Assembly: GCA_902812405.1 (NCBI GenBank)
Contig: CADDZI010000015.1
Span: 1 to 46,046 of the forward strand
Length of the DNA stretch: 46,046 bases
Source: a bacterium
GTDB lineage: Bacteria; Vulcanimicrobiota; Vulcanimicrobiia; Eremiobacterales; Eremiobacteraceae
Reading direction: 5' to 3'
Made by a program: the position numbers and the translations under genes. Every line of letters starts with the position of its first letter. The stretch's first letter is position 1. This document shows, one piece after another, positions 1,986 to 28,668 of this stretch. The notes beneath the pieces were generated by a model. That model searched no databases. It was given only the letters and a program-made list of their open reading frames with translations, and had not been told where the DNA came from.

Positions 1986-3209
1986 TCAGCGGAAAACGAT
2001 GACCGCTTCGAGCGGACCAAGTGTCTGAGGAGGCGGCGGGCCTTGCGTGGAAACGGTACCCTCATCCAAAATCCCGCCCCCCGAGAGTACTAAGGTGTGC
2101 TCGTATTTGTTACCATAAGGGTAGGCATGAGTCTGAGAGCGGCTGGGGTTAACGACAGCTGCGCACGGCCCGACCGGAGAGCCCGCTAAATAGCAAGATT
2201 GGTACTCTCTGCCATACACGCCGCTCGGTTGTTGGAGGGCAGAGATATCTAGGGGGGTCGGCACCACCGGGTTGAGGGCAACCAGTTTCGTCTCTGGTTC
2301 CACTCGGAATTTGGACGCAGTACCGTAATACTCCCAAAGAATACTCTTGTCCGGCGTGTATGTCAGCAGAAATGAGGCATATGTGTAAATGCGGCCGTCG
2401 ACTGAGCGCGAAGCGTCGGTTGTATCTTTTCCGTAGCAGAAGAATAATTTGCCATCGCGTGCCATGGCGATTTCGGTGTTTTCGATCTGTGTCCAATATC
2501 TATCCCACATCTTGGGAAATCTCACTGAACCGGAGTAGCACCCCTCCTCCATGCCACCAATAACATTGGGCACGTCATTGAGGGCGCGGGTAGCGTTGTT
2601 TTCCAGACCGTTGTACACGATGGGCACATCGACGCTGGCAATGAGCTGCTTTTCGGCAGCCAGCCACGCCTCGGGGTCATAGTTACAGGGTAACCCTGAG
2701 AGCCCCACCATGGTGTTCGCATCGTCGACAAAGAAGGCATCCCAGTGGCGGTTTGCGCTGCGCGATCTGATCACCCATTGAAATTTTGCTCGCAGAGCGG
2801 GCGATGCTGGGTCGGCAAGGTACATATGCTCGTAATGAAGCGAAGCGAGCCTGTTACCGGAACAATCGTGTGCATATACCGACTCGTCAGCCGACCGCAT
2901 CGGGTTGGTATCGTTGATCCGGTTCGGGTTGGTGTAGTACATCGTCTTGATACCGGCCGCCACAGCCTCCGGGTCATATTGCCAGGAGGTTTCCGTCCAC
3001 GTGACCCAGGGGGCGACCACCGTCGCGGGCAATGCCGTATTTTCCGGCCCTCCGAGATAATCGGCGGTCAACACGTGCATGGGTACCGTTGCACCCCACG
3101 CCGGGGGTGCCATACAAGTGAGAACAAGAGCCCAAATAATGATCCGGAACATGCTGGCACCCCGACCCTCAGTGATGATGCCGATTCCAAATGCAGGTCT
3201 CGTTTTCAT
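1986..3209 (-). CDS. Secreted TIM-barrel-like putative glycosidase, copy 1
   Basis: A 407-residue exported protein of the family that also occurs twice at 5334-8362. An alternative ATG at 3152 gives the cleanest signal peptide (MFRIIIWALVLTCMAPPAWG, then ATVP). The domain begins MHVLTADYLGG and has HWDAFFVDDAN, a likely strand end with clustered acids. Later come VIGGMEEGCY and KLFFCYGKD, and a C-terminal beta-rich stretch ending TLVLSGGGILDEG. An Asp/Glu cluster at the end of a strand, with a short second acidic motif, is typical of TIM-barrel glycosidase families (GH114 or GHL-type). I cannot place it in a named family. It lacks the Pro/Thr linker of the other two copies and is clearly diverged from them. 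The TGA lies four bases before the next glycosyltransferase's GTG, so the two are co-transcribed. Degradation or trimming of the locus polymer is an inference. Confidence 0.7.
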   Translation of the reverse strand: MKTRPAFGIGIITEGRGASMFRIIIWALVLTCMAPPAWGATVPMHVLTADYLGGPENTALPATVVAPWVTWTETSWQYDPEAVAAGIKTMYYTNPNRINDTNPMRSADESVYAHDCSGNRLASLHYEHMYLADPASPALRAKFQWVIRSRSANRHWDAFFVDDANTMVGLSGLPCNYDPEAWLAAEKQLIASVDVPIVYNGLENNATRALNDVPNVIGGMEEGCYSGSVRFPKMWDRYWTQIENTEIAMARDGKLFFCYGKDTTDASRSVDGRIYTYASFLLTYTPDKSILWEYYGTASKFRVEPETKLVALNPVVPTPLDISALQQPSGVYGREYQSCYLAGSPVGPCAAVVNPSRSQTHAYPYGNKYEHTLVLSGGGILDEGTVSTQGPPPPQTLGPLEAVIVFR

Positions 3210-3213
3210 ATTG

Positions 3214-3995
3214 TCAACTATCCTCTCCAGTAACGTTGCCGGCAGCTACCCGGTTCGCGCGATAGGCGTTTACCCTGCCGAGTAACTGCTGTCGGAGGTG
3301 GAACATTCCTTGGGCCGCATGCCGCAGATGGCGCAATGCGAAGAAACGTCCACGCTTCAGCGTCAGCATCGGCACCTGCGTCACCCCGTATTTCTCCTTA
3401 TATCTCCTTCTTATACGCTCCGCGCCCCCAATTAATTTTTCCTTAAGCCTCGATGCTTACAATAACGCATGGCGTACCAACGAAGCGCCTCGTTGGGGCG
3501 TAGATGCTGGTCGGCACGGAAACTTGCGTTGCCCCAAAACTCGACCAGTTGGTTCATTCCAGCATAGATCGCCGTGGCGATACACTTGCCGTTCGGGCCA
3601 CACCTCTCTTTTCCACCTGTCGTATCTTCTGCCGATACTCTTTGGCCATCGTTGCGCAGAGCGCGTCCTCGCGAGGCAGCCAGGAGGTCGACCTCCGCAA
3701 CATCGCCCTCGACATTGAACGCCATGTGCGAGGTGGTCCAACCGGGGAAGGGGCTGCCGAGAATCCGTAATCCGAATCGTCGTATGACCAGACCCCTGAC
3801 GTATCCAAGTACCTGCGTGCCCTGTTCAACAGCTGCAACCACCGGAGTCGCGTGTTGCGTTTCGGCAAGATACTCCAACCAGGCCTTTGTCTGGAGGAGA
3901 GTACGATCCTTACAAGAATTCAGCACGTCCCAGGGGACCGCACCGTAGTCTAGTTCCCGGAGCCGTAACGTCATGGCATGATATGCTTTCTGCAA
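3214..3995 (-). pseudogene. Decayed FemAB/GNAT-like transferase
   Basis: Relic of the gene whose intact form is at 15024-16163. From the ATG at 3995 the frame matches its N-terminus (VPWDVLNSCKDRT, then RILGSPFPGWTTSHMAFN). It then jumps over about 120-150 residues to CIATAIYAGMNQLVEFWGNA and HLRPNEALRWYAMRY, and stops at 3432. Another frame within 3554-3680 keeps MAKEYRQKIRQVEKRG, part of the skipped middle. A third frame beyond 3432 keeps YKEKYGVTQVPMLTLKRGRF and runs to a TGA at 3214-3216, five bases before the next ATG. There are thus several frameshifts and an internal deletion. The gene is non-functional, yet recognisable along nearly its whole length. Confidence 0.88.
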
Positions 3996-4146: not shown

Positions 4147-5337
4147 ATGATTCGTGTGATTCACATTAGTACTGTGCACTCGGCGTACGATGTCAGAATA
4201 TTCTACAAGGAGGCGCGGTCTCTTGCGAACGATGGATACGACATCGTCGTTGCCGCTCTAGCAAACGGAGCCAAGGTGCATCAAGGGGTTCACATTGTCC
4301 CGCTTGGCAAGGAAGGTGGATCGCGCTGGAAACGTATAGCCCGCGTCTTTCGTGCTTTGTTCCTAATGCTTCGCGAAAAGGACAGCATCTTACACCTGCA
4401 CGACCCCGAACTGCTCTTAGCGGCCATTATTCCGAGTTTTTTGCACCGCAAACTTATCTTCGACGTGCACGAATTCTACGTAGCTCACATTGCCCATGCC
4501 GTATGGATACCGCGCTGGTTGCGCGGCTTGGTAAGTCATTCGTATGACTGGCTCGAGCGCCGGATTCTTCCTCGTTTTTCGGGTATCGTGATAGCTGTCG
4601 AATCCATGCGGGCTCGCTATGCCGAGATTATTGGAGATGAACGGGTCGCACTTGTTCGCAATTTTCCGTGCATAAGCCCGAGCGACAAACATCAAGCTCT
4701 GACAAGTGCGCATCCCTTCGGGGACAGGCCTTACATCGTCCATACCGGAGGCGCCTCCCACTTACGATCCTTCCATGTCATGGTTGAGGCTGCAGAGCTC
4801 CTGCGTAGATACCAGTGCGATTGGCCGATAGTCAATATGGGCGAGGTCAATCTATCAGGCTACGATCCACGCCAACGCGCGGAGTTTATGGCTAGGGCTG
4901 CTGCTGCCGGTATCCATAACCTGGGGAGCGTGCAGCAAGAGGTGGCATGGCGCTATTGCGCGCATGCAGAGATTGGGCTCATCTTTCTGGCTTCTGTTGA
5001 GAATTACAAGCGTGCCTTGCCCATCAAACTCTTCGAATATTGGTTTTTTGGTCTTCCTGTTGTGGCGCCTGACCTGGGCGAGCTAGCCAGATATATCAGG
5101 CGTTGGGGCGCCGGGCTACTTTTCCCCGCCGAAGATGGCGCTGCTGCAGGCGAGCTACTGCTCAGCTTAGTACGCGATCCAGACCTTAGGGCACGTATCG
5201 CCCGGCGGGCCTCGGAAGCGGGGGCGCACTTTGATTTCGCGCCCGAAGCCCGTTCCTTGAGGAGTCTATACGAACAGATAAAAAATGCAAGGCCCTACGG
5301 ACGCAGGTGGGCCGTGGACAAAAATTGTGCCCCCTAG
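4147..5337 (+). CDS. GT4-family glycosyltransferase
   Basis: A 396-residue cytoplasmic GT-B glycosyltransferase on the strand opposite to the locus. The N-terminus IRVIHISTVHSAYDVRIFYK is a typical acceptor-domain start. HLHDPELLL near residue 83 and KLIFDVHEFY are features of GT4 enzymes from capsule and O-antigen loci. In the donor domain the second glutamate of the EX7E motif is in PIKLFEYWFFGLPVVAP, but the first position is not Glu, so the motif is only half conserved. No clear Shine-Dalgarno precedes the ATG. The 129-152 bases between it and the FemAB relic must hold its promoter. Its stop overlaps the stop of the convergent lipoprotein gene by four bases (CTAG, 5334-5337). Donor and acceptor are unknown. 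Confidence 0.85.
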   Translation: MIRVIHISTVHSAYDVRIFYKEARSLANDGYDIVVAALANGAKVHQGVHIVPLGKEGGSRWKRIARVFRALFLMLREKDSILHLHDPELLLAAIIPSFLHRKLIFDVHEFYVAHIAHAVWIPRWLRGLVSHSYDWLERRILPRFSGIVIAVESMRARYAEIIGDERVALVRNFPCISPSDKHQALTSAHPFGDRPYIVHTGGASHLRSFHVMVEAAELLRRYQCDWPIVNMGEVNLSGYDPRQRAEFMARAAAAGIHNLGSVQQEVAWRYCAHAEIGLIFLASVENYKRALPIKLFEYWFFGLPVVAPDLGELARYIRRWGAGLLFPAEDGAAAGELLLSLVRDPDLRARIARRASEAGAHFDFAPEARSLRSLYEQIKNARPYGRRWAVDKNCAP

Positions 5338-6728
5338 TGGAAGACAATAATGCCCTGGAGGGCTTTAAGACTTTTTGGCGGCGCGGGGCCTGCAATTGAA
5401 ATTTTCCCCCCATCCAGGATTCCTCCACCGGTGAGGACGAGGGTGTGTGTGTATTTGGTACCGTAGGGATATGGATGGGCGTTGAAACGGTCAATGTTGA
5501 CCACGGCGGCGCATGAGCCGACGTATACCCCAGCCACGTAGCAGGCGCGGTATTCGCGGCCATAGACTTGACTGCTCACCTGTAGCGCACTCACGTCGCT
5601 AGGCTGCGGGACCACGGGGCTCAGTGCCACGAGCATGGACTCAGGCTCGACGTGAAACGCAGACGGCGTGGCATACATCTCCCATAGGATGCTGGACGAT
5701 GGCGTATAGGTTATCAAGAAGGACGCATATGTATAGAGCCGACCATCAAGGGCCGAGACAGCTGTAGTGGGATCACGATCATAGCAAAAGAAGAGTTTGC
5801 CTTGCTGCGCCATCCCCAATTCAACGTTGGCGATGTGTATCCAATAATTGCCCCACATCTTGGGATACTGACTTGACCCGCCGTAACAGCCTTCTTCCAT
5901 GCCTCCAATGACGTTCGACGATACGTTCAGCCCCATCTCATTGGCGATCTGCAAGCCGTTGTACACGATGGGGTAGGGCGCCTGGTAGCTGTTCTCACCC
6001 TGTGAAGCCGCCAACCATGAGGCGGCACTATAATTGCATGGCAATGCCGGTGCACCCACCACATCGTTGGCATCGTCCTCAAAAATCGCATCCCACTGTA
6101 CCGTATTCGTGATACGTGACGCGATGAAGTTTCTCCATAGTTGCCGTAAATCAGGCGAGGCCGGATCCATGAGATATTGACCATACGTTATAGGACCAAT
6201 CCGCTGACCCGAGCACGTATGCGCAAATGTGGATTCATCCTTGGTATACAGCGGATCCCCAGGAGCTTCGCGGTTTGGATTGGTGTAATACATCGCCTTG
6301 ATACCGGCAGCTCGCACCGCTGGGTTTGACTGAAACGACGTCTCCAACCACGTCACCCAGCGCGCTAACAGCCCAGGACTCAACGTCGTGTCACCCGCCC
6401 CACCATAGTAGTCCGCTGTCAAGACATGCGTCATCGCAATCGAACTAGGAGTCGACGTGGCCCAGGGCGTGGGGCTGGCGGTTGCACGCACCGCTGGCGT
6501 TGGGCTCATCCGCGGCGTGGGACTTGCAGTCTGTCTAAGCTGTGGACTGGGGACAGCGCTAACAACTGGAGAGACCGTGGCGGCCAGGGTTGGCGGTATG
6601 AGGTTGCGACGAATAGTACCCGCGGGCACGGGCAACGATCCCGACGACGACCCGCTGCAGTTGACCAAGAACGCGCAACAGACTGCTGCAAAAAAATAAG
6701 TCGCCCACCTCGTATACCGTGCCTGCAC
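5334..6728 (-). CDS. Lipoprotein with TIM-barrel-like putative glycosidase domain, copy 2
   Basis: The frame is open to an ATG at 6791. I prefer the GTG at 6728, which has GGGAGG just upstream. It gives a compact lipoprotein signal, VQARYTRWATYFFAAVCC then the lipobox LVNC (Cys24), and 464 residues in all. A linker rich in Ser, Pro and Thr (SPTPRMSPTP and similar) leads to the domain beginning SSIAMTHVLTADYYGG. It carries WDAIFEDDAND and GGMEEGCY as candidate acidic active-site motifs. From 5406 to 6458 the DNA is the same as in the next gene upstream. Only the signal and linker and the last 20 or so residues differ (ISIAGPAPPKSLKALQGIIVFH here). The protein is expected to sit on a membrane facing the periplasm or the surface. 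Polymer hydrolysis is inferred from fold-like motifs and context. Confidence 0.7.
   Translation of the reverse strand: MQARYTRWATYFFAAVCCAFLVNCSGSSSGSLPVPAGTIRRNLIPPTLAATVSPVVSAVPSPQLRQTASPTPRMSPTPAVRATASPTPWATSTPSSIAMTHVLTADYYGGAGDTTLSPGLLARWVTWLETSFQSNPAVRAAGIKAMYYTNPNREAPGDPLYTKDESTFAHTCSGQRIGPITYGQYLMDPASPDLRQLWRNFIASRITNTVQWDAIFEDDANDVVGAPALPCNYSAASWLAASQGENSYQAPYPIVYNGLQIANEMGLNVSSNVIGGMEEGCYGGSSQYPKMWGNYWIHIANVELGMAQQGKLFFCYDRDPTTAVSALDGRLYTYASFLITYTPSSSILWEMYATPSAFHVEPESMLVALSPVVPQPSDVSALQVSSQVYGREYRACYVAGVYVGSCAAVVNIDRFNAHPYPYGTKYTHTLVLTGGGILDGGKISIAGPAPPKSLKALQGIIVFH
5406..6458. repeat. 1,053-bp direct repeat, copy A
   Basis: I compared this with 6965-8017 line by line at an offset of 1,559 bases and saw no difference. 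The repeat lies wholly inside the coding region of the lipoprotein gene. It ends abruptly inside the Ser/Pro/Thr linker on one side and a short run of C on the other. Its ends are therefore not gene ends. Confidence 0.95.
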
Positions 6729-6892
6729 ATTACCTCCCGCTATCGGTGGCGCCCACGCATCAGCCTGTGCTCGCCTGGACGCCACGCGCATACTATATAC
6801 AGGCAGAGCCCTCCTGTAAAGCGGTGAGGAGGCGCCCCCTTGGCCGGCAGCCAGGCGAGACTAGTGCCTCTTATGAAACCGCCTTTAGCTAA

Positions 6893-8362
6893 TTAGGGGA
6901 AAACTATCGCGGAACCAAGCGCAGGTAAGTTTGCCGGTGGGAGAGGCCCCGCCACCGATATTGCCCCCCCATCCAGGATTCCTCCACCGGTGAGGACGAG
7001 GGTGTGTGTGTATTTGGTACCGTAGGGATATGGATGGGCGTTGAAACGGTCAATGTTGACCACGGCGGCGCATGAGCCGACGTATACCCCAGCCACGTAG
7101 CAGGCGCGGTATTCGCGGCCATAGACTTGACTGCTCACCTGTAGCGCACTCACGTCGCTAGGCTGCGGGACCACGGGGCTCAGTGCCACGAGCATGGACT
7201 CAGGCTCGACGTGAAACGCAGACGGCGTGGCATACATCTCCCATAGGATGCTGGACGATGGCGTATAGGTTATCAAGAAGGACGCATATGTATAGAGCCG
7301 ACCATCAAGGGCCGAGACAGCTGTAGTGGGATCACGATCATAGCAAAAGAAGAGTTTGCCTTGCTGCGCCATCCCCAATTCAACGTTGGCGATGTGTATC
7401 CAATAATTGCCCCACATCTTGGGATACTGACTTGACCCGCCGTAACAGCCTTCTTCCATGCCTCCAATGACGTTCGACGATACGTTCAGCCCCATCTCAT
7501 TGGCGATCTGCAAGCCGTTGTACACGATGGGGTAGGGCGCCTGGTAGCTGTTCTCACCCTGTGAAGCCGCCAACCATGAGGCGGCACTATAATTGCATGG
7601 CAATGCCGGTGCACCCACCACATCGTTGGCATCGTCCTCAAAAATCGCATCCCACTGTACCGTATTCGTGATACGTGACGCGATGAAGTTTCTCCATAGT
7701 TGCCGTAAATCAGGCGAGGCCGGATCCATGAGATATTGACCATACGTTATAGGACCAATCCGCTGACCCGAGCACGTATGCGCAAATGTGGATTCATCCT
7801 TGGTATACAGCGGATCCCCAGGAGCTTCGCGGTTTGGATTGGTGTAATACATCGCCTTGATACCGGCAGCTCGCACCGCTGGGTTTGACTGAAACGACGT
7901 CTCCAACCACGTCACCCAGCGCGCTAACAGCCCAGGACTCAACGTCGTGTCACCCGCCCCACCATAGTAGTCCGCTGTCAAGACATGCGTCATCGCAATC
8001 GAACTAGGAGTCGACGTTGGTGTAGGAAGCCCGGTCGGCGTGGCGGTTGGACTGGGTCGTGGGCTCATGCTGGGCGTCGCACTTGGCCCTGGAGTTAGTG
8101 TGCTGGTGGCGGTCGGTCGGGGTGATGGAGAAGCAATCACCGTCGGGGTCGCACTTGGTTGAGGAGTCGTCGCCTGGCTTGGGGTTGGAGTGGGAGACGT
8201 CGCTACCGTTGAAGACCGCGGAGACGGGTCGTCATGCTGAACATGGCTAAGACGGCTCGGTGGTAGCACCGCCGGCGACGGCCCACCACAGCCTGCGTCT
8301 ATCAGCAGGCCTCCGAGGAGGACAGCGCCGGATAATAGTGTTGTAATTCTGCGAATACCCAT
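6893..8362 (-). CDS. Lipoprotein with TIM-barrel-like putative glycosidase domain, copy 3
   Basis: A 489-residue protein. The signal MGIRRITTLLSGAVLLGG leads to a slightly atypical lipobox ending IDAGC (Cys25). Residues about 47-120 form a long low-complexity Ser/Pro/Thr linker (PTPTPSQATTPQPS and similar), the kind that spaces a domain away from a membrane. The domain from about residue 121 matches copy 2 exactly until the last 20 residues, which read ISVAGPLPPANLPALGSAIVFP. WDAIFEDDAND is at about 237-247 and GGMEEGCY at about 300-307. A 100-164 base gap separates it from copy 2, so the pair may be co-transcribed. A possible -10 (TATAAC, complement of 8421-8426) lies upstream but has no convincing -35. 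Function as in copy 1: inferred, not shown. Confidence 0.72.
   Translation of the reverse strand: MGIRRITTLLSGAVLLGGLLIDAGCGGPSPAVLPPSRLSHVQHDDPSPRSSTVATSPTPTPSQATTPQPSATPTVIASPSPRPTATSTLTPGPSATPSMSPRPSPTATPTGLPTPTSTPSSIAMTHVLTADYYGGAGDTTLSPGLLARWVTWLETSFQSNPAVRAAGIKAMYYTNPNREAPGDPLYTKDESTFAHTCSGQRIGPITYGQYLMDPASPDLRQLWRNFIASRITNTVQWDAIFEDDANDVVGAPALPCNYSAASWLAASQGENSYQAPYPIVYNGLQIANEMGLNVSSNVIGGMEEGCYGGSSQYPKMWGNYWIHIANVELGMAQQGKLFFCYDRDPTTAVSALDGRLYTYASFLITYTPSSSILWEMYATPSAFHVEPESMLVALSPVVPQPSDVSALQVSSQVYGREYRACYVAGVYVGSCAAVVNIDRFNAHPYPYGTKYTHTLVLTGGGILDGGAISVAGPLPPANLPALGSAIVFP
6965..8017. repeat. 1,053-bp direct repeat, copy B
   Basis: Second copy of the repeat at 5406-6458, in the same orientation. 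The flanks diverge at once: this copy has seven C at its low end where copy A has six. The linker sequences differ completely past 8017. Such identity between neighbours with unrelated flanks points to recent gene conversion or a partial tandem duplication. It is also a place where assemblies collapse or misjoin. Confidence 0.95.
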
Positions 8363-8948: not shown

Positions 8949-10358
8949 CTATACTGCTGCCGTCACAACGTGAGATGTAGGCTGATGGCGGTGCTTGGGC
9001 ACCTGTCCGATAACTTGGTTTTCCGACTGCCACGCCGCATAGGTGAGACTGGCCGAGATGAATAGCAGCCATGTGTACTTTCGGTACATGATATCTAAAA
9101 ACATAGCCGCGGCAAAGAGTCCCAGTAATGCTCCCTGGCAGATGAGACGGTAGGGGTACGTGTTACTGTTCTCCGGTATTTGATTCAACATGCGGAATTG
9201 GACCCACCAGGCGCCAAGCAACAACAGAAGTCCAATCAGTCCCAACTCGACACCGGTTTGCATGAGCAGGTTGTGCGCCGCGCGTGCCCAACCAATACCA
9301 TGCGGTGTAAAGACTCGCATGTACACACGATTGAAGGCGACCGGGAAATTCTCGAGCCCTGCCCCGGTCAGCCAATAGCGCTCAAATGCAGCGAACCCCA
9401 CTCGCCAAATATCTTCGCGGCCTGATCCATGTGTTGTAAGAGCATTGCTGAAGCGGGCCCAAATCGACGTGGGCATAAAGAAACTGGTGATCACACTCAA
9501 CGTCATTAGGGCGATGACGTGAATTCGATGCCTCGATCGCCATACCAGGTATACGAAGACGACGGCTACACCAAGAAGTCCCCCTCGTGATCCCGTGGCG
9601 TAGACCCCCATAAGAAGGACCACGTCCGCTGCAACCAAGGCTAGTTTGACCCCTGGGGAGGGGGTCATGAGGAAGCCGACCGTTACAACCGCGATCGGAA
9701 GGATCATCGCTGCTGCAAAATGGTTGGGGTCAATGACGTCTTGACCGTTCGAAAGCAACAGACGCTGAGTGATGCTCGCGAGATTCTGGTGAAAGTAGTA
9801 TACTCCGTAGGCGGCCGAGAGGACGCCGCCCAGACCTGTCCCAAACATGACCGCGCGCAAGTCGACCAGTGTAACCGGCAGGAGGCTTATCACGACGTAG
9901 AGCGATATCAGTTGTAATACCGTCTCCAGCCTGCCCAGCGCAGCAGTTGAATCCAACGCCCAGAAGAGCGTGAGGCTCATCCACACGACCACCCCGAGCC
10001 ATGCGTACAGGGCCGGAGGGGGGCGACGCCAGCGCTTGTTCTTTAGCATCCAGAAAGCCATGGCGGCGACAGAGGCAGCCCCGATGAGTCGCAGAAGTGT
10101 TCCAAACTTTGAGAGACCGAGCAGCTCGTCCATCGGGGCGAGCATCGCAAATAACCCAAAGGGAAACACCAAGGGGCGCCTCGCTCCCGCATAGATGACC
10201 ATCGGGGCTAAGGCAACTGCCACTGCAAGCGCGAGAAACGTCTTCGACCCTAGCGTCTCGCCCCAGACGAAAATGTAGCTGACCAGCAACATCGTGGCGA
10301 CGGTGCCGACGCCGAGGAGCCAAGCACCGATGTCCTTGGCTCGCGGCTCATGGATCAC
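8949..10358 (-). CDS. O-antigen ligase/polymerase-like membrane protein (Wzy/WaaL type)
   Basis: A 469-residue protein, nearly all hydrophobic, with about 11-12 predicted membrane segments. A large periplasmic-type loop follows the motif GSRGGLLGVAVVF. The region around HGSGREDIWRVGFAAFERYWLTGAGLENF is the loop typical of the O-antigen ligase/polymerase (Wzy_C, PF04932) family, with a later AHNLLMQTGVELGLIGLLLLL. It probably polymerises repeat units, or ligates the polymer, at the periplasmic face. Polymerase and ligase cannot be separated by sequence alone. The start is GTG at 10358. It overlaps the TGA of the wecB relic (GTGA, 10355-10358), so translation would have been coupled to that gene. 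No Wzx-type flippase is seen in the window. Confidence 0.85.
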   Translation of the reverse strand: MIHEPRAKDIGAWLLGVGTVATMLLVSYIFVWGETLGSKTFLALAVAVALAPMVIYAGARRPLVFPFGLFAMLAPMDELLGLSKFGTLLRLIGAASVAAMAFWMLKNKRWRRPPPALYAWLGVVVWMSLTLFWALDSTAALGRLETVLQLISLYVVISLLPVTLVDLRAVMFGTGLGGVLSAAYGVYYFHQNLASITQRLLLSNGQDVIDPNHFAAAMILPIAVVTVGFLMTPSPGVKLALVAADVVLLMGVYATGSRGGLLGVAVVFVYLVWRSRHRIHVIALMTLSVITSFFMPTSIWARFSNALTTHGSGREDIWRVGFAAFERYWLTGAGLENFPVAFNRVYMRVFTPHGIGWARAAHNLLMQTGVELGLIGLLLLLGAWWVQFRMLNQIPENSNTYPYRLICQGALLGLFAAAMFLDIMYRKYTWLLFISASLTYAAWQSENQVIGQVPKHRHQPTSHVVTAAV

Positions 10359-10918
10359 AGTCCCACCCCCGCCTGGGCTGCATGTAAACGGGGTTTGCAG
10401 GCGACAGGTGCAGTGGAAACCGGTGTGCCTTCAAGGACTTTTGCCATGCGGCACGCTACTTGTGGCGGGCCAACCAGATCACCCGGCCGTCTGACTGGGG
10501 CAAGCCGCAATGCCGCCTTCTCGATGGCGTCGGTCGTCCCCGCCAGTACGTTCCAGCCGTCTTCGAGCGTCTCGGTCCACTCGGTTGTGTCACGCAGGGT
10601 GACGCAGGGTACGCCAAGGACGTAGGCCTCTTTCTGCACGCCGCCCGAATCCGTGAGAATCACCCGAGCATGCATTTCTGCGGCGACCATGTCCAGAATG
10701 AGCGCGGTCTGCACGGCATGCGACGCTGAACCAACTTCGAGATTGTACTCGGGGTCTTTGATGCCAAGTTCGTCGAAGAACACCTTCGACATCTTGTAAT
10801 CGTAGTGCTGGCCTGTATTGACCAGGCATTCTTGCCAGTGGCGCCGCGCGAGTTCCTCGCTCAGGAGAGCCGCCTTGATGAACTGCGGCCGGGCGCCCAC
10901 GACGCTGAGTACTTTCAT
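10355..10918 (-). pseudogene. UDP-GlcNAc 2-epimerase (wecB/wbpI) copy with large in-frame deletion
   Basis: From the ATG at 10918 the reading frame [19 protein letters not shown] is the same as the intact epimerase at 17384-18484. After [10 protein letters not shown] it jumps straight to [19 protein letters not shown], losing about 185 residues. The missing part holds the [16 protein letters not shown] and [10 protein letters not shown] regions needed for substrate binding and catalysis. The frame stays open (187 aa), but the product cannot be an active epimerase. DNA identity to the intact gene is very high from about 10570 upward. Then the last 60 codons (AIEKAALRLAPVRRPGDLV and on) differ strongly while still aligning as a natural epimerase C-terminus. 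That makes this gene a mosaic of two alleles. It overlaps the next gene by GTGA and the previous relic by ATGA. Confidence 0.9.
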
Positions 10919-11174
10919 GCCGTTGCACCGACCTGGACCGCGGCAGACAGCTCTCGCACGGCGGTGTCCTGGTTCTCTGCAGTCAATTCGGGGAACATCG
11001 GCAGCGAAAGTACTTCTCGAGCCGCCCGTTCGGCGTGCGGAAAGACGCCGGCCTGACCCGACGTGCGGTGCACCTCTTGAAGATGCAGCCGGCGTGCCTC
11101 GTTCCGGGCATCCAAATGAGGTAGTTCCACGCGCAAGATCGCGGCCTGCACCTCGTCCAGGCGGCTGTTGACAC
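10915..11174 (-). pseudogene. wbpE-like aminotransferase relic (C-terminal part, internal deletion)
   Basis: The last 80 or so codons match the C-terminal part of the aminotransferase at 18481-19593. [20 protein letters not shown], then after EARR a direct jump to [14 protein letters not shown], and on to [20 protein letters not shown]. About 60 residues between these blocks are missing, in frame, with a two-base microhomology at the junction. Homology starts abruptly at about 11174. The sequence further upstream (to 11299) does not match the aminotransferase, although the frame stays open. The N-terminal two thirds, including the PLP lysine, are gone. The stop overlaps the wecB relic start by ATGA, exactly as in the intact pair. 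Confidence 0.88.
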
Positions 11175-11647
11175 ATGCAGCTGCTGCCGCCACGCAAGTT
11201 GCAGCACTGATGCCTGGTATCGCCTTCATGCGATGCGGCGCGCCTAATCCCACCAAAACTTCGTGCGCGGTCCTCATTTTGGACCCCTCGTGTCGACACC
11301 GGGGTCTCGCCGATCGGTTGTCATAGGGTCTCTTTCGGTGCCTGCCGAGCTTTATCCATCTATCGACCCGTAACTTTCATTGTGTGTGGAGACCCAAAGC
11401 CTATGCCGTTAGGTTGCGAGGCCCCAGCTGCAGGACTTCCCGCAGGTGTCTGCTGAGGATGGCCCATAGGCGCTCCCGCGCTCGCATATGGGATGTCGCG
11501 AAAGAGATAGCTGCTTAACGGGTTCCACCACCGCATCTGCGATACACTCGGCAAATGCACTCCGAAGCTTGACAAACAAAGGGAGAGTAAATTGCACCAG
11601 CCGAACTGCCGTTTTAGAAGCCTATCTGTACGCATGAGAAGAACGCA
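11175..11647. other. Gap of about 470 bases without a recognisable gene
   Basis: Between the aminotransferase relic and the forward glycosyltransferase I recognise no gene. Short open frames here (11360-11635 minus and the non-homologous head at 11175-11299) have no family features. Some of it may be decayed coding sequence from the duplicated block. It must contain the promoter for the gene starting at 11648. I found no convincing -35/-10 pair. Confidence 0.5.
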
Positions 11648-12898
11648 TTGTACTCTTTCGTGATCATATCACAATACTATCCTCCTGAAGTGGGCGCATC
11701 GCAGGCGCGACTCAGCGCCCTCGTGCGTCAGCTTTCCAGGCTCGGGCATGGGGTGGAAGTGGTTACCGCCTTGCCCCATCACCTCCGCGGCAGAATCCAC
11801 GACCGCTATCAAGGCCATTTCTATGTCCGAGAAACGTGGGAAGGCATTCCGGTCTATCGGACGTGGGTATATGCCCCTCCAAGCGTCAGCGTCGCGGCAC
11901 GCGTCCTCAACTACACCAGCTTCGCGTTGACATGCCTGTATAGCCTGGCGCGGTTACGACCTCCGACCTACACCTTCGTGGAGTCTCCTCCGCTTATGCT
12001 GTTTCCGGCCGCCTGGCTGTTTGCCAAGCGTTGGCGAACCCCGATTATCCTCAACGTGGCCGACCTTTGGCCTACGTCCGTCAAGCTACTCGGCGTAATG
12101 CAAGACGGTCCGTCACTCCGCCTGGCCGAGCACTTGGAATCGTGGGCATATGCTCATGCCACCTACATTAATGCTGTGACAAAGGGTATCTATGAAGAGC
12201 TTGCGATTCGCCGCGGCTATGCATCCAAGGTTTTGTTCTTACCCAACGGCGTGGATACGGAACGATTCTCGCCCGGGAGGCCCGATCCCGAGTTGATCCA
12301 TCGCTACGGTTTGCACGGCAAGAAGGTGGTTCTGTATGCCGGCACCCACGGCCTCGCCTACCGGCTGGATATGCTCGTTGATGTGGCTGCGCTGACACAG
12401 GACTTAGATGTCGTGTTGATGTTAGTCGGAGAAGGTCATACGAAGCCAGGCGTCATGCAAGCCGCGGCCAAAGCCGGAGTCCGTAACATGATCTTTGTTG
12501 AATCGCAGCCTGAGTCCGAGATGCCCCGCTACTTTACAACCGCGTATGCGACGATCATCCCCCTGGCCCGCAATCCACTGTTTGCAGGGACGCGGCCTGC
12601 GAAGATATTTCCCTCCCTGGCGACAGGGACTCCCATTATCTACTCGGGCGAAGGCGAAGGCGCCCGATTGGTAAGCGAGGCCAATGCCGGTGTCGTCGTT
12701 CCCCCGGAGAACCCTTCAGCTATGGCCGAGGCAATCCGCAACTTAATCCAGCAACCGGCACTCCACGCCGAACTTTCTCGCAACGCACGTCGGTGCGCAC
12801 TGGAGTCTTTCAGTTGGGAGACAATTATTGCCCGCTGGCTCCGTGAGCTCGAATCACATGAATGCGACACACCAAACCGATACAACAAGCACAACTAA
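11648..12898 (+). CDS. GT4-family glycosyltransferase, WbuB-like
   Basis: A 416-residue GT-B enzyme. The start is a TTG at 11648 (no earlier in-frame start keeps the family N-terminus), reading YSFVIISQYYPPEVGASQAR. This is the hallmark of the WbuB/WcaI-like GT4 group, which transfers amino or deoxy sugars such as fucosamine in O-antigen loci. Other group features are SPPLMLFPAAWLFAKRW, then NVADLWPTSVKLLG, LPNGVDTERFSPG and LYAGTHGLAYRLD. The last motif binds the donor nucleotide. Like the glycosyltransferase at 4147 it runs against the locus. Its TAA overlaps the stop of the convergent aminotransferase by four bases (12895-12898). The precise sugar is not predictable. Confidence 0.87.
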   Translation: MYSFVIISQYYPPEVGASQARLSALVRQLSRLGHGVEVVTALPHHLRGRIHDRYQGHFYVRETWEGIPVYRTWVYAPPSVSVAARVLNYTSFALTCLYSLARLRPPTYTFVESPPLMLFPAAWLFAKRWRTPIILNVADLWPTSVKLLGVMQDGPSLRLAEHLESWAYAHATYINAVTKGIYEELAIRRGYASKVLFLPNGVDTERFSPGRPDPELIHRYGLHGKKVVLYAGTHGLAYRLDMLVDVAALTQDLDVVLMLVGEGHTKPGVMQAAAKAGVRNMIFVESQPESEMPRYFTTAYATIIPLARNPLFAGTRPAKIFPSLATGTPIIYSGEGEGARLVSEANAGVVVPPENPSAMAEAIRNLIQQPALHAELSRNARRCALESFSWETIIARWLRELESHECDTPNRYNKHN

Positions 12899-14025
12899 TT
12901 ACTATCATCCAGGACATCCCGCAGTGTCTGCACGATGACGTGTGCATCCTCCAGCGAGAGATTATTGTGGAAAGGCAGAGCAACCGTCCTTGAGGCAACC
13001 CGTTCTGTCACGGGGAGCGGGGGAACCTTGAAACCCCGGGCCTTGATGTATGGTTGCTGGTGGATCGGTGCAAAATACCCCCGCGAGGGGATGCCCCGTT
13101 CGGCAAGCTTACGAATCACTGCGTCTCGGTGCACCTGGCCGAGCAGCTCAACGATGTACACGAAGTGGCTGGTGCGACACCCGGGGCGCTGGCGCAAGGT
13201 GCGCACGCGTGGTTCCTCTGCTAGCAGCGTATCGTACATCTCGCTGACTCGCCTGCGCTTCTCCAGCAACACATCGATCCGCCTCAATTGTGCGATGCCG
13301 AGTGCTGCGCTCATTTCGGTCATGCGGTAGTTGTATCCCAATACCGCGTGCTGCAGCCACGGGCTCTCTTCGTCACGCCCTTGATTGCGCAATTGCCGAC
13401 ACGTGCGAGCCACCGCAGAGTCGTTCGTGACGATCATCCCGCCCTCTCCGGTGGTCATCTGCTTGTTGGGAAAGAAGGCAAAGACGCCACCGATTCCAAA
13501 CGGACCGCACTTTTTGCCGTAGTACTCCGCGCCTAGGGCCTCGCACGCGTCGGCAATGAGGGCCAGTCCGTGACGATCGGCGATGGCGGACAATTCGTTC
13601 CACTCAGCCGGCGTCCCGAAAACATCCACAGCCAGAATCGCCTTCGTGCGGCTCGTGATCGCCTGCTCCACCAGATGAGGATTGATGCAATACGTATCCG
13701 GCTCGATATCGACGAACACCGGTGTGGCACCCAGGTAGAGGAAGCAGTTTGTGGATGCCACAAAGCTGAAGGAGGTGGTAATCACTTCGTCGTTTGGACC
13801 AATCCCGGCTGCACAACAGAGCAGATGAAGGCCGGCCGTCCCAGAGTTCACGGCAACCGCGTGTCGGGCACCGCAGTACTGTGCGACGAGGGATTCGAAT
13901 GCATCGGTCCGCGAACCCATCGTGAGGCGCCCGGACCGAAGAGCCGCGAGCACCTCGCCAAAGTCCGCATCCTCGAGATCGGCTGCCGCCATGGCGACAC
14001 GAGTGGTATTGTGGAGACTCGTCAT
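12895..14025 (-). CDS. DegT/DnrJ/EryC1 family PLP aminotransferase
   Basis: Predicted sugar aminotransferase that transfers an amino group (normally from glutamate) to a keto-sugar nucleotide in the cytoplasm. The substrate-site start is LRSGRLTMGSRTDAFE, followed by AVNSGTAGLHLLCCAAGIGP and DEVITTSFSFVAS. The PLP-binding lysine is in FFPNKQMTTGEGGM. The end motif ALPFHNNLSLEDAHVI is also family-typical. The frame is open to 14286, but the ATG at 14025 overlaps the wecA-like stop by ATGA and gives 376 residues, the usual length. It is the last gene of the intact run. Unlike the other two aminotransferases it has no relic in the left block, so it may serve a different sugar (a 4-amino type is common for LRSGRLTMG enzymes). 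That assignment is tentative. Confidence 0.9.
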   Translation of the reverse strand: MTSLHNTTRVAMAAADLEDADFGEVLAALRSGRLTMGSRTDAFESLVAQYCGARHAVAVNSGTAGLHLLCCAAGIGPNDEVITTSFSFVASTNCFLYLGATPVFVDIEPDTYCINPHLVEQAITSRTKAILAVDVFGTPAEWNELSAIADRHGLALIADACEALGAEYYGKKCGPFGIGGVFAFFPNKQMTTGEGGMIVTNDSAVARTCRQLRNQGRDEESPWLQHAVLGYNYRMTEMSAALGIAQLRRIDVLLEKRRRVSEMYDTLLAEEPRVRTLRQRPGCRTSHFVYIVELLGQVHRDAVIRKLAERGIPSRGYFAPIHQQPYIKARGFKVPPLPVTERVASRTVALPFHNNLSLEDAHVIVQTLRDVLDDSN

Positions 14026-14999
14026 CGCGGCACCTTTACCTCCTCCGGACCTGGAGTTAGCCACCCAAGAGCGCGCGCTGCCAGAAGGAGGGCGACTGTC
14101 AGCAAAGCTGCCACCGCGATCACGATACCCAGAGGCTGGAATGACAACACCAGCGCCAAACCACCGAGCAGAATATCGAAACAGAAAATGAGAATGACAA
14201 CCTCCGTGTTGTTCTTTAGTGATATTCGCAAGCGATCGTAAAAATGCTCCCGATCGCCTGAAAACAGAGACTTTCTTCCCAACCATCTGCGCACAACGCC
14301 TGTGCTCAAATCAAAGATGGGCACTCCGGACGCTATGAGACCGCAGAGAAAGAGACGCGGACTAACGAGCAAGAGCTCTGTCAGCGCGTAGGATAGCAAG
14401 CAGCCCAACAACAGGCTGCCGGAATCTCCCATAAAGACTGTGGCGCGAGGGAAATTCCAAACTAGGAACCCCAACGTCGCCGCCGCAAAGATAGCGCAGT
14501 CATCAGCCCTCAGACCGTGCAGCCGATTCAGGAGACCAAGACTGCCAAAGGCAATAGCGGAGCTCCCGGCTGCCAGGCCATCCATGCCGTCCAAGAGATT
14601 GACGGCATTGGCGAGAACAACCGTCAGAACCATTACCGCACCCCACAGCAGGACGGTCTTCGGACTCAACTCGTGGGGGTAAAGCAGGAAGCCCGCTAGC
14701 ACCAGACCCGCCACAGTCTGACCAATCAGCTTCGTTCCCGGACGTAAGCTATATCGGTCGTCCAGAAGACCGACAACGAACATCAAGATTGCACCCGGCC
14801 ATGCTGCGTGGAGTCGGGGCACCATCAGTGAGCTTGTCATAACGCCGCAGAAAATGCCGAAACCTCCAAGCCGGCTTATCGGCTGAGTTTGCAGCTTTAA
14901 GGGACCCGGCGGATCTACGATACGCAAGCGCAGGCCCAACGCGGCACATGCCGGGGTTAGGACGGTACACACGAAGAACGCCAGCAGTACCGGAATCAT
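14022..14999 (-). CDS. wecA: WecA/MraY-family sugar-1-phosphate transferase
   Basis: Integral membrane enzyme that moves a HexNAc-1-phosphate from its UDP carrier to undecaprenyl phosphate, starting the repeat unit. It has 325 residues with about 10 membrane segments. Family motifs in order are PISRLGGFGIF, GLLDDRYSL (Asp-Asp pair, Mg2+ site), NAVNLLDGMDGLAAG and FMGDSGSLLLG. SGDREHFYDRLR stands at the place of the His-rich cytoplasmic loop. It is the only intact initiating transferase in the window, so the polymer probably begins with a GlcNAc-type phosphate. The start overlaps nothing, and the stop is coupled by ATGA to the aminotransferase. A decayed copy is at 421-773. The symbol is by family; the true substrate could be another HexNAc. 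Confidence 0.88.
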   Translation of the reverse strand: MIPVLLAFFVCTVLTPACAALGLRLRIVDPPGPLKLQTQPISRLGGFGIFCGVMTSSLMVPRLHAAWPGAILMFVVGLLDDRYSLRPGTKLIGQTVAGLVLAGFLLYPHELSPKTVLLWGAVMVLTVVLANAVNLLDGMDGLAAGSSAIAFGSLGLLNRLHGLRADDCAIFAAATLGFLVWNFPRATVFMGDSGSLLLGCLLSYALTELLLVSPRLFLCGLIASGVPIFDLSTGVVRRWLGRKSLFSGDREHFYDRLRISLKNNTEVVILIFCFDILLGGLALVLSFQPLGIVIAVAALLTVALLLAARALGWLTPGPEEVKVPR

Positions 15000-15023
15000 T
15001 ACTCCAGGCTCATCCTTCGTGCT

Positions 15024-16163
15024 CTAGCTATCCCAACAATCCTGAGCGGCAATCGCATTGTGTGGCCGCCGCGTAAGGGGAGACTCACCTTTCCGATTTA
15101 GCTGTACCAATCTCCCGAAAACCGCTTGCTTGAGTCGGAATGCATTCTGCGCAAAGTTGCGCAGATAGCCCAGGCCGCTGAAACGCCCTTTGCTCAGGGT
15201 CAGCACCGGCACACGCCGAACACCATATTTCTCCTTATACTCCCCCCGCCCCCAATTAATCCACTCCAATCCCCGGCGCTTCCAATACCTCATCGCGTAC
15301 CAATGCAGCGCCTCGTTGGGGCGCAGATGCTGGTCAGAGCGAAAACTTGCATTACCCCAGAATTCAACCATGCGATTCATGCCTGCATAAATCGCAGTTG
15401 CGATACACCGGTTATCCGGTCCACGGGCCCGCAAGAGCAGCAGGTGACCGGTGGGAGCAAGATGGCGGATAAGACTTTCTACGCGATGTACATCGTAGGT
15501 TGGGATACTGGCTTGCTTTGAGAACACATCCTTAAGTTGTTCATAAAAGTCGGTTGCAAAAGACAGATCGGTCGCCTCCTCGATACGCACGCCCCGTCTT
15601 TCCGCTTGCCGAATTTTCTGCCGGCACTCCTTTGCCATCCTGGTAAAAATCTGTTCTTCGCTTTGCGTTAGATCCGTCTCATAGGTGTGTGAAAGACGCG
15701 ACTCGAATCCGGCTGCGTTGGCATCAACTTCGCTGAATCTTTGATGATCTGATACCTCAACGTAGACGCATCGAAGTACGTTAAATGCAAACGTACTAAG
15801 AGCGGCTAACAGTTGCCCCCCCGGCACTGTCTCCAGCATGTTGAAGCCCATGTAGCTTGTCGTCCATCCCGGGAAGGGACTGCCAAGAATGGGGAGTCCA
15901 AATCGGCGTATCAGCAAACCGGTGAAGTAGCCCACGGTGTCTTTCCCCCGTTGAACCGCTGCCACGACGGGTGTCGCTCGCTGCGTTTCCGCCACGTATG
16001 CAAGCCAGGCACGGGTTTGAAAAATCGTCCGATCAGGCATGCGGTCAAGAACATCCCAGGGGATTGCAGCGTCAGGCAGCCGACGCAGCTGCAGCGTCTG
16101 ATTTGCTTGTTCGCGGGCGCACTCCGGATCTAGGGTCAGATCCATCGACGATGCCGGTTGCAT
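15024..16163 (-). CDS. FemAB/GNAT-like transferase in polysaccharide locus
   Basis: A 379-residue soluble protein of the FemAB-like double-GNAT (acetyltransferase_6 / BioF2-like) group. These use aminoacyl-tRNA or acyl-CoA to modify a lipid-linked precursor. Visible features are IPWDVLDRMPDRTIFQTRAW near residue 35, RFGLPILGSPFPGWTTSYMG, then MAKECRQKIRQAERRGVRI near 195 (a FemAB-typical basic helix). CIATAIYAGMNRMVEFWGNA and LRPNEALHWYAMRYWKRRG form the C-terminal GNAT core, followed by YKEKYG near the end. The ATG at 16163 has TAGGAG eight bases upstream. That site is part of a perfect palindrome (16164-16176). Relatives occur in exosortase/EPS loci. Here it may acylate or aminoacylate an amino sugar of the polymer, which is inference. 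A heavily decayed copy lies at 3214-3995. Confidence 0.82.
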   Translation of the reverse strand: MQPASSMDLTLDPECAREQANQTLQLRRLPDAAIPWDVLDRMPDRTIFQTRAWLAYVAETQRATPVVAAVQRGKDTVGYFTGLLIRRFGLPILGSPFPGWTTSYMGFNMLETVPGGQLLAALSTFAFNVLRCVYVEVSDHQRFSEVDANAAGFESRLSHTYETDLTQSEEQIFTRMAKECRQKIRQAERRGVRIEEATDLSFATDFYEQLKDVFSKQASIPTYDVHRVESLIRHLAPTGHLLLLRARGPDNRCIATAIYAGMNRMVEFWGNASFRSDQHLRPNEALHWYAMRYWKRRGLEWINWGRGEYKEKYGVRRVPVLTLSKGRFSGLGYLRNFAQNAFRLKQAVFGRLVQLNRKGESPLTRRPHNAIAAQDCWDS

Positions 16164-16176
16164 TAGGAGGCTCCTA
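16164..16176 (-). promoter_or_regulatory. Palindrome covering the ribosome-binding site of the FemAB-like gene
   Basis: TAGGAG, one central base, CTCCTA: a perfect 13-base inverted repeat directly before the ATG at 16163. The Shine-Dalgarno lies in the distal arm. The stem is too tight to fold on itself without opening a loop. Meaning is uncertain; it may be chance. Confidence 0.3.
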
Positions 16177-16208
16177 CACCTCTGACCACAACACGCTACG
16201 GCCCGAGC

Positions 16209-17378
16209 TCAGGAACGACTTGTTGATCGCCTGGCGGCTGAGCACACGCTGTCTGCGACGTAATGCGCATCCTCGTCGCTCATGTCGGGATAAAGGGGGA
16301 GGGAGACAAGGCGCTGAGCGGCCCACTCTGTTACGGGCAATGGACGGGTATGTAAATGCCGCATTGAGGCCAGTAAGTGGGTTGGGGGGAAGTGAACGCT
16401 CGTGCCAATACCGTTGCCGAGGAGCGAGGTTATGACAGAGTCTCTTGTTACGCCACAGCTATCGTCTACTATGATCGCGAAGACACACCAGCTGTGCCGC
16501 GCGGGCCGAAGAGGCCATTGAGTCGCAGGTACGATTCCGTTGCTTCCCTCGAAAGCGTCACAGTAGATCCGGGCCAGGCGATCCCGCCTGGCTTGCAAGG
16601 TCGACAACTTTGCCAGCTGTGACATGACGAGGGCCGCCGTCAGGTCAGGCATATTATACTTGTAACCCAACGCAACAACATCATAGGCATAGCGATTTCC
16701 CAACTCATATCTCTTCCACGCATCCCTATCCATGCCGTGCAGAGAGAGAATACGCACCCGTTCCTCGAGGTCTTTATCGTTGGTAAGGAACATGCCACCC
16801 TCACCTGAGGTGATGTTCTTTGTCGCGTAAAAACTAAACGCCGCACCATCGGAATACTTACCCGGCCACTCTCCCGTATCGTCCAGAGTCCCAACGGCGT
16901 GCGCCGCGTCCTCCAAAACTCTTATCTTGCGCTCCCTCGCGTAGCTCACGATACCGCGAATGTCCATCGGATAACCACCGTAGTACATGGGAATGATAAC
17001 TCGGGTTCGTTTTGTGACCACTGGATCAATTGTCTCGGGAGTTAGGCACAGCGTTTTAGGATCAACATCTGCAAAAACAGGTGTGGCCCCGAGATGTAGT
17101 GCGCATTGTGCCCCCGCGACAAAGGTCAATGACGGCATCACCACTTCGTCCCCCGGCCCGACACCCATCGCTCGCAGGCCTAAGTGGAGCGCTGCAGTAC
17201 AACTGGATACCGCAACGGCATACTGAATTCCAGAGCGGGCTGCAAATTCGCGCTCAAGCTCTTGTACTCTAGGCCCCGTTGTCAGCCACCCAGACCGCAA
17301 CACTCTGTTGACGGCATCGATGTCGTCTTGATCTATGGAGGGTTTGAAATACGGTATCGTGCGTCTTTGGGATTTCAT
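16209..17378 (-). CDS. DegT/DnrJ/EryC1 family PLP aminotransferase
   Basis: A 389-residue sugar aminotransferase. It starts TIPYFKPSIDQDDIDAVNRV, then LRSGWLTTGPRVQELEREFA, the signature of the PseC/ArnB-like subgroup that aminates position 4 of keto-sugars. It continues VAVSSCTAALHLGLRAMGVG, PSLTFVAGAQCALHLGATP and MYYGGYPMDIRGI. The PLP lysine is in FYATKNITSGEGGM, and SVHFPPTHLL lies near the C-terminus. With the dehydratase at 22543-24582 making a 4-keto sugar, a 4-amino sugar is a reasonable guess. Subgroup assignment is by motif only. It lies five bases from the wecB stop, so the genes are co-transcribed. A decayed N-terminal copy is at 8525-8925. C-terminal residues after SDEDAHYV look unremarkable. 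Confidence 0.9.
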   Translation of the reverse strand: MKSQRRTIPYFKPSIDQDDIDAVNRVLRSGWLTTGPRVQELEREFAARSGIQYAVAVSSCTAALHLGLRAMGVGPGDEVVMPSLTFVAGAQCALHLGATPVFADVDPKTLCLTPETIDPVVTKRTRVIIPMYYGGYPMDIRGIVSYARERKIRVLEDAAHAVGTLDDTGEWPGKYSDGAAFSFYATKNITSGEGGMFLTNDKDLEERVRILSLHGMDRDAWKRYELGNRYAYDVVALGYKYNMPDLTAALVMSQLAKLSTLQARRDRLARIYCDAFEGSNGIVPATQWPLRPARHSWCVFAIIVDDSCGVTRDSVITSLLGNGIGTSVHFPPTHLLASMRHLHTRPLPVTEWAAQRLVSLPLYPDMSDEDAHYVADSVCSAARRSTSRS

Positions 17379-17383
17379 GGGTC

Positions 17384-18484
17384 TTAGCTAACCGCCGATG
17401 TAAAATGGGAGACGAATACACGACCGCAAGCACATGCCTCTTCCAACAAATCGGCAATCCGACATGCGCTAGAGAGCGGGAAAACCGTGGCCGCAGAGAC
17501 TGGACCAGCCGGTGAGCGCTCTACCGCTGCCCTGATTGCACCCGGGTCTGTCCCCGCCAGCACGTTCCAGCCGTCTTCTAACGTTTCGGTCCACTCGGTT
17601 GTGTCACGCAGGGTGACGCAGGGTACACCAAGGACGTAGGCCTCTTTCTGCACGCCGCCCGAATCCGTGAGAATCACCCGAGCGTGCATTTCTGCGGCGA
17701 CCATGTCCAGATACGAGAGCGGTTCGCAAAAGACAATGTTGCGTGGCCGCTCCGGGAGCCGCTCAACAAGGGGTGCCGTACGGGGGTGTACGGGAAACAC
17801 GACCGGAAACGGCAGCCGGGAAATGCCCTCGAGAATGCTACGAAACGCCTCGACGTCATCGGTGTTTGAAGCCCGGTGGACGGTGGCCAAACCATACGTG
17901 CCGGCGGCGAAGGGAATGCACGACGGCAGCGGCCGCCCCCTGACGTGGGCGGCTGCTCGGCGGACCAGGTCGACCATGAGGTCTCCCACCACGGCGACGC
18001 CATCCACGATCCCTTCTCGACGCAGATTATCGGCTGCACTCTGAGTGGGTGCGAGTAGCAGTTGCGAGACATGGTCCGTAACAATGCGGTTGATTTCTTC
18101 CGGCATGCTTTTGTCGAAGGAGCGTAATCCGGCCTCGACATGTGCCAGCGGGATTTTGAGCTTGGCCGCGACCAGTGCTCCGGCAAGCGTCGTGTTGGTG
18201 TCGCCAAAGACGATAACCCAATCCGGCTTTTCGGCCGCGACCACCGGCTCCAACCGCTGCATCATGAGCGCGGTCTGCACGGCATGCGAGGCTGAACCAA
18301 CTTCGAGATTATACTCGGGGTCTTTGATGCCAAGTTCGTCGAAGAACACCTTCGACATCTTGTAATCGTAGTGCTGGCCTGTATTGACCAGGCATTCCTG
18401 CCAGTGGCGTCGCGCGAGTTCCTCGCTCAGGAGAGCCGCCTTGATGAACTGCGGCCGGGCGCCCACGACGCTGAGTACTTTCAT
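17384..18484 (-). CDS. wecB: UDP-N-acetylglucosamine 2-epimerase type enzyme (WecB/WbpI)
   Basis: Non-hydrolysing 2-epimerase of 366 residues, usual for the family. It inverts C2 of a UDP-GlcNAc-type sugar. Motifs are [17 protein letters not shown] at the N-terminus, [32 protein letters not shown] and [22 protein letters not shown] and [11 protein letters not shown] lie in the C-terminal half. The open frame extends to 18853, but only the ATG at 18484 gives the family start, and it overlaps the aminotransferase stop by ATGA. Because it directly follows wbpA-, wbpB-, wbpD- and wbpE-like genes, the likely substrate is the diacetamido-glucuronate nucleotide, as for WbpI of Pseudomonas aeruginosa. 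A plain UDP-GlcNAc epimerase is the alternative. A deleted copy is at 10355-10918. Confidence 0.92.
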
Positions 18485-19593
18485 GCCGTTGCACCGACCT
18501 GGACCGCGGCAGACAGCTCTCGCACGACGGTGTCCTGGTTCTCTGCAGTCAATTCGGGGAACATCGGCAGCGAAAGTACTTCTCGAGCCGCCCGTTCGGC
18601 GTGCGGAAAGGCGCCGGCCTGACCGGACGTGCGGTGCACTTCTTGAAGATGCAGCGGCACCGGATAGTAGACCATCGTCTGAACGCCAGCTTTGTGCAAC
18701 CGCTCGCGCACCTCGTCGCGAGCAGCCAGGCGCACGGTGTATTGGTGATACACCGCATGACAATCGGACGGTTCGGCGGGAACCGTGATGCCTGCAACCT
18801 TGGTGAGGCTTTCGGTATACCGCACGGCAATGCGCCGGCGTGCCTCGTTCCATGCATCGAGGTGAGGCAGCTTGACACGCAAGATCGCGGCCTGCACCTC
18901 GTCCAGGCGGCTGTTGACGCCAAGCTCTTCGTGATGGTATTTTCGCCGCCCCCCGTGCACCCTCAGCGCGCGCAGTCTGTCCGCCAAAGCCACGTCGTTA
19001 GTGGTGACCATACCGCCGTCGCCATAGGCGCCCAAGTTTTTCGAGGGGAAGAAACTGAAGCAGCCGATTGTACCGATCGTCCCCACCGTACGCCCGCCAA
19101 CCTTGGCACCGATGGCTTGGGCGCAATCCTCGACGACCACAAGTCCATGGCGCCGGGCAATCGCCATGATGGCGGGCATAGCCGCCGGGCATCCGTAGAG
19201 ATGCACCGGCAAGATGACCTTCGTGCGGGGTGTGATGGCCGACTCGATCTGCGCAGCGTCTATGTTGTACGTGACGGGATCGATGTCGACGAAGACTGGG
19301 GTCGCACCGACGATGCCGATTGCCTCCGTCGTCGCGACGAAGGTGAACGGCGTCGTGATGACTTCATCCCCCGGCCCGACGTCCAAAGCACGCAGCGCTA
19401 AATGGAGTGCATCCGTGCCCGAGTTTAGGCCAATCGCATGCTTGACGCCTACGTAGGCGGCGATTTCATGCTCGAACGCCTCGACGTTTGGCCCCATGAT
19501 GAACGTCCCGCTTTCAAGCACCCGGGCGATGGCCGCATCGATCTCACTCTTGAGCGCCCGGTATTGGGCGGTGAGATCCAAAATGGGGATCAT
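18481..19593 (-). CDS. wbpE: WbpE-like 3-keto sugar aminotransferase
   Basis: PLP enzyme of 370 residues. The start [20 protein letters not shown], then [17 protein letters not shown], is typical of the WbpE/DesV group that aminates position 3. [20 protein letters not shown] and [19 protein letters not shown] follow. The PLP lysine is in [15 protein letters not shown] and the C-terminal substrate region is [17 protein letters not shown]. In the WbpA-B-E-D-I route it turns the 3-keto product of WbpB into a 3-amino sugar acid with glutamate as donor. It is coupled by ATGA to both the upstream acetyltransferase (19590-19593) and the downstream epimerase. Its C-terminal segment recurs in the relic at 10915-11174 with very high DNA identity. 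Confidence 0.93.
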
Positions 19594-21172: not shown

Positions 21173-21177
21173 TGCCG

Positions 21178-24582: not shown

Positions 24583-24598
24583 TGTCTCCTTTTCGCGT

Positions 24599-26782: not shown

Positions 26783-26831
26783 GATAACCTTTCGTACCTA
26801 CCTTCTCTGTTGCCGTCTCATCCGGCAAGTG

Positions 26832-27647: not shown

Positions 27648-27673
27648 GACTCCTCTCTTCGGTAACGGCTGCA

Positions 27674-28639: not shown

Positions 28640-28668
28640 CCTCTTCACGACGTTTGCACTCCCTTCGC

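Follow-up and report, generated by a model that had tools for sequence, protein, structure and literature searches.

Two neighboring GHL15 genes with a core identical as assembled

Two adjacent genes in an exopolysaccharide cluster of an uncultured Eremiobacterota bacterium, each predicted to encode a lipoprotein-like glycoside hydrolase of the GHL15 family, appear from their sequences to be old tandem paralogs whose cores were made identical recently. Gene conversion between them, in which the core tract of one gene overwrote its counterpart in the other, is the probable cause. The window analyzed is the entire contig C15 (46,046 bases) of a MAG of 2.32 Mb in 110 contigs. Both genes lie on the reverse strand just downstream of wzy, gene 1 at 6893 to 8362 (489 amino acids) and gene 2 at 5334 to 6791 (485 amino acids as listed). 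For gene 2, a likelier start is the GTG at 6728, which has GGAGGT, read from the sequence as a ribosome-binding site, just 5' of it and gives a protein of 464 amino acids. GHL15 (Pfam PF14885, hypothetical glycosyl hydrolase family 15) has a gathering cut-off of 27 bits, which the two proteins pass only just, with 29.6 bits for gene 1 and 29.7 bits for gene 2, and NCBIfam assigns neither to a family. The spacer between the genes (6792 to 6892, reverse strand) holds a lone weak promoter-like match (6820 to 6792), which is at chance level, as were the promoter and terminator scans around the pair.

As the first-pass annotation had claimed, the cores are identical as assembled: exact comparison matches 1,053 of 1,053 bases between 6965 to 8017 in gene 1 and 5406 to 6458 in gene 2 (both reverse strand, offset 1,559). 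Mismatches directly flank the tract, which thus stops sharply at both ends. Chance is excluded, because no other exact repeat, direct or inverted, exceeds 127 bases in the ~427 kb sampled from the genome. In gene 1 the tract covers the end of the linker, a TIM barrel, and most of a C-terminal beta region. With 506 bases between the two identical stretches, recombinational instability would be expected.

The ends had been called unrelated, which holds for the signal peptides and extreme N-termini, where no alignment was obtained, and fails for the C-termini. The diverged tail of gene 1 (AISVAGPLPPANLPALGSAIVFP plus stop; 6893 to 6964, reverse strand) and that of gene 2 (KISIAGPAPPKSLKALQGIIVFH plus stop; 5334 to 5405, reverse strand) agree at 13 of 23 residues and, with the stop codon counted, at 35 of 72 bases, and a tail resembling them is found throughout the GHL15 family members compared. 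The linkers align weakly, with 54 to 58% identity per 24 codons. Their alignment score is 0.5, against -11.4 ± 4.9 and a maximum of 3.0 in 200 shuffles, and they are probably homologous because this alignment beats most shuffles. Upstream of the tract, gene 1 (8018 to 8362, reverse strand) encodes a signal peptide with a putative lipobox Cys25 and a Ser/Pro/Thr linker, with ~91 residues to the tract, while gene 2 (6459 to 6791, reverse strand) encodes an N-terminus with a putative lipobox Cys45, numbered from the listed start, and a linker, with ~67 residues to the tract. Judged by eye, these putative lipoboxes, IDAGC and FLVNC, are only near-canonical, being off at position -3 in gene 1 and -1 in gene 2; clearer ones, such as WLAGC, occur in many GHL15 proteins of relatives.

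The tract was described as ending inside the linker and near the C-terminus. The upstream boundary does fall within the low-complexity linker. In an AlphaFold model of the core (pLDDT 90.3, pTM 0.90), the downstream boundary corresponds to residue 348, with strands 349 to 351 and 366 to 370 still to come, so that the tract ends at no domain edge; it stops inside the folded C-terminal beta region, just past the conserved ILDGG motif of the family.

Core and tail divergence

To place the pair among its relatives, core identity was compared with tail identity. In the 65 comparison pairs with tails about as similar as those of genes 1 and 2 (identity 0.57), core identity is 0.45 ± 0.09 (range 0.35 to 0.75), whereas the cores studied here have an identity of 1.00. 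The pair is also the largest outlier in a regression over 629 pairs, with a z of 7.8 that is a description and not a probability, as the pairs share ancestry. Some other pairs, too, have a core better conserved than the tail, with z reaching 4.7 in a tandem pair. In the GHL15 tree, genes 1 and 2 stand alone on a long stem. The homologous, diverged tails, the mismatch between core and tail identity, and the boundary inside the fold together suggest old paralogs with a recently homogenized core, with an age that can be estimated only roughly since the tail has just 23 residues.

Probable gene conversion between tandem paralogs

Under the explanation that we favor, genes 1 and 2 would have diverged as tandem paralogs within the exopolysaccharide cluster, and the neighbors would then have misaligned, with recent RecA-dependent gene conversion as the most likely route. 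A tract of ~1,053 bases from one gene would have been substituted for its counterpart in the other, and the flanking signal peptides, linkers, and tails would have stayed diverged. The products would be a pair of GHL15 hydrolases, attached to the surface or associated with the envelope, whose catalytic domains are nearly the same and whose substrate is probably the polymer of the cluster or a related one. The conversion mechanism, lipoprotein attachment, hydrolysis, and substrate are the parts of this explanation that we infer. Homogenization by gene conversion, one of two routes offered by the first-pass annotation, is supported by the position of the identical core between old homologous tails. 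This is the arrangement expected of conversion, a near-identical tract between homologous, diverged flanks, with the linker side being the less certain. Base composition of the two copies did not tell donor from recipient.

The bacterial paralogs tufA and tufB are known to undergo gene conversion. Concerted evolution by this process among bacterial paralogs, including rRNA operons, is covered in a review (PMC6002687). Such paralogs resemble genes 1 and 2 in having a homogenized tract between the homologous flanks of two copies in one genome. Unlike the rRNA operons or tufA and tufB, genes 1 and 2 are one pair of predicted surface hydrolases, for which one assembly suggests a single event. Core homogenization is ordinary as an evolutionary event; here it offers a fairly clean case of a single enzyme core in two differently anchored surface proteins from a little-studied phylum.

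Of the other explanations, we regard it as unlikely that the repeat is largely an effect of assembly, with copies that differ somewhat in sequence or in number and a merged graph path that was walked twice. The last 127 bases of C15 (45920 to 46046) are exactly the start of contig C80, and the far end of C80 overlaps the start of C16 by exactly 127, making these contigs graph neighbors; such 127-base overlaps are the mark of a de Bruijn assembly with k=127. The 1,053-base repeat is longer than ordinary short-read inserts, and a wrong number of repeats is a common error in MAGs according to curators (PMC7111523). Probably the assembler met a simple loop and passed through one graph path twice, which makes the perfect identity and the copy number provisional: copies that differ slightly may have been merged, and the unit count may be off. 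Against a largely artificial repeat, however, cores as unlike as the tails would not be merged at k=127, and the bin has no other such core except a third paralog. The contig also contains four different junctions between core and flank (two N-terminal flanks and two tails), each needing reads of its own, which makes it unlikely that the genome has a single core.

Less probable still is a recent tandem duplication of the whole gene, after which one copy had its N-terminus and tail replaced. A fresh duplicate would have an identical core, and tandem GHL15 duplicates are common among relatives. Yet two additional replacements would be needed, one of which would have to exchange the tail for a homologous, diverged GHL15 tail, and a single conversion tract is preferred because it is simpler. 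The other route in the first-pass annotation, by which an unrelated surface protein with its own anchor and linker acquired the catalytic domain, is very improbable and was set aside: the signal peptides cannot be aligned and the upstream boundary lies in a low-complexity linker, as it would predict, but the tails are homologous, the linkers probably are as well, and at its downstream end the tract stops within the fold.

GHL15 genes in the window and in relatives

A third paralog at 1986 to 3209 (reverse strand) has a secreted-type N-terminus without a linker and is ~57% identical to the core at the protein level, an identity despite which the Pfam GHL15 search does not report it. This gene is unhomogenized, its longest exact run being 17 nucleotides.

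Several genomes of the family and class have more than one GHL15 gene, and these copies are often tandem. No close match to the locus was found in the genome contigs searched, and the species is the only one of its genus among the genomes compared. Some GHL15 genes of relatives adjoin genes for Wzy, a DegT aminotransferase, or a glycosyltransferase, and other copies lie elsewhere. Where they are neighbors, the core is moderately conserved, the N-termini usually cannot be aligned, and divergence is gradual. None of the tandem pairs found in relatives has an identical core, and the longest exact run in the other within-genome pairs is 38 nucleotides. Collapsed identical copies were considered at the GHL15-bearing contig ends of G007 and G009 and rejected, as these ends have just 33 and 56 imperfect bases in common with other contigs.

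In the tree, the upstream and downstream GHL15 genes of genomes G002, G009, and G012 fall in separate groups, and those of G003 and G010 are sisters, which, on the tree, may reflect duplication or an older conversion. In both of the latter genomes the neighboring cores are mutually closest even though the linker is long in one gene and nearly absent from the other. Taken as a hint, this makes it conceivable, if doubtful, that tandem GHL15 genes in exopolysaccharide clusters of Eremiobacterota repeatedly swap the catalytic core and keep their position-specific anchors and linkers, which would maintain the same enzyme at two placements. Lineage-specific duplication fits the sister cores of G003 and G010 equally well.

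Several other GHL15 genes of relatives have unusual structures. In G006, the GHL15 domain ends an open frame of 1,585 residues (L037:921-5675) with two stretches of laminin-G/concanavalin-like matches, and one such stretch is present at L035:2174-4306; judged by these matches, carbohydrate-binding modules may be part of some GHL15 proteins. A frame-broken GHL15 remnant in G007 (L052:5259-5916) lies beside two other GHL15 genes and is a case of gene birth and decay within GHL15 arrays.

Predicted fold and activity

The modeled core consists of a TIM barrel and, after it, a C-terminal beta region. Its best fold matches in the PDB are glycoside hydrolase TIM barrels, with GH168 fucanases first and GH66 and others after them. 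The GH168 endo-fucanases 9nhf, 8rg3, and 8ya6 match with TM-scores of 0.56 to 0.62, and Fun168A, also of GH168, resembles the model in having a TIM barrel and then a small beta sheet. At ~13% identity, the likeness to GH168 is one of fold only, and the substrate is not transferable. A profile search of the PDB found no sequence match to the core among solved structures at an E value of 0.1, and GH168 membership was rejected, the likeness being confined to the fold. The invariant acidic residues D125, which follows the strand at 121 to 124, and E186, at the end of the strand at 180 to 186, are candidate catalytic residues in the alignment and model.

That the two proteins have the same activity, as was proposed, is likely from their sequences if the assembly is right, as the domain is common to both except for the last 23 residues. 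The accompanying proposal of a different reach or placement is weak: both N-termini are lipoprotein-like, and ~91 and ~67 residues of linker separate the putative lipobox cysteine from the tract. As of 2017, no GHL family apart from GHL1 had been characterized (PMC5765458). GHL15 has no known activity in the papers found, and its position next to Wzy in exopolysaccharide clusters suggests a substrate that can be tested.

The exopolysaccharide cluster

Upstream of the pair, a gene for a Wzy-type polymerase/O-antigen ligase with a Pfam Wzy_C match lies at 8949 to 10358 (reverse strand). The rest of the cluster extends from 11648 to 28951 and includes genes for glycosyltransferases, DegT aminotransferases, a UDP-GlcNAc 2-epimerase, a UDP-sugar dehydrogenase, a Wzz/kinase, and a Wza-type export protein. 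This gene content points to a polymer that probably contains amino sugars and uronic acids, and the likeliest role for the GHL15 pair, judging by its setting, would be to trim or release this polymer at the cell surface. PelA, PslG, and PgaB are glycoside hydrolases encoded inside exopolysaccharide operons. The predicted secreted hydrolase genes described here are likewise part of a cluster for polysaccharide synthesis and export, but they belong to another family and are present in two or three copies close together.

Two further genes of the window have partial copies in it. The stretch from 10355 to 11299 is a shortened copy of the UDP-GlcNAc 2-epimerase gene (full gene at 17384 to 18918), with segments 94 to 98% identical to parts of 17545 to 18658, an 88% identical piece near 11082 to 11172, and ~552 bases missing; it is a second recent duplication in the cluster and is probably decaying. 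At 3432 to 3995, all that remains of a duplicate of the FemAB-like acetyltransferase gene (15024 to 16163) is two pieces, with 64% and 83% amino acid identity, that are joined by a deletion.
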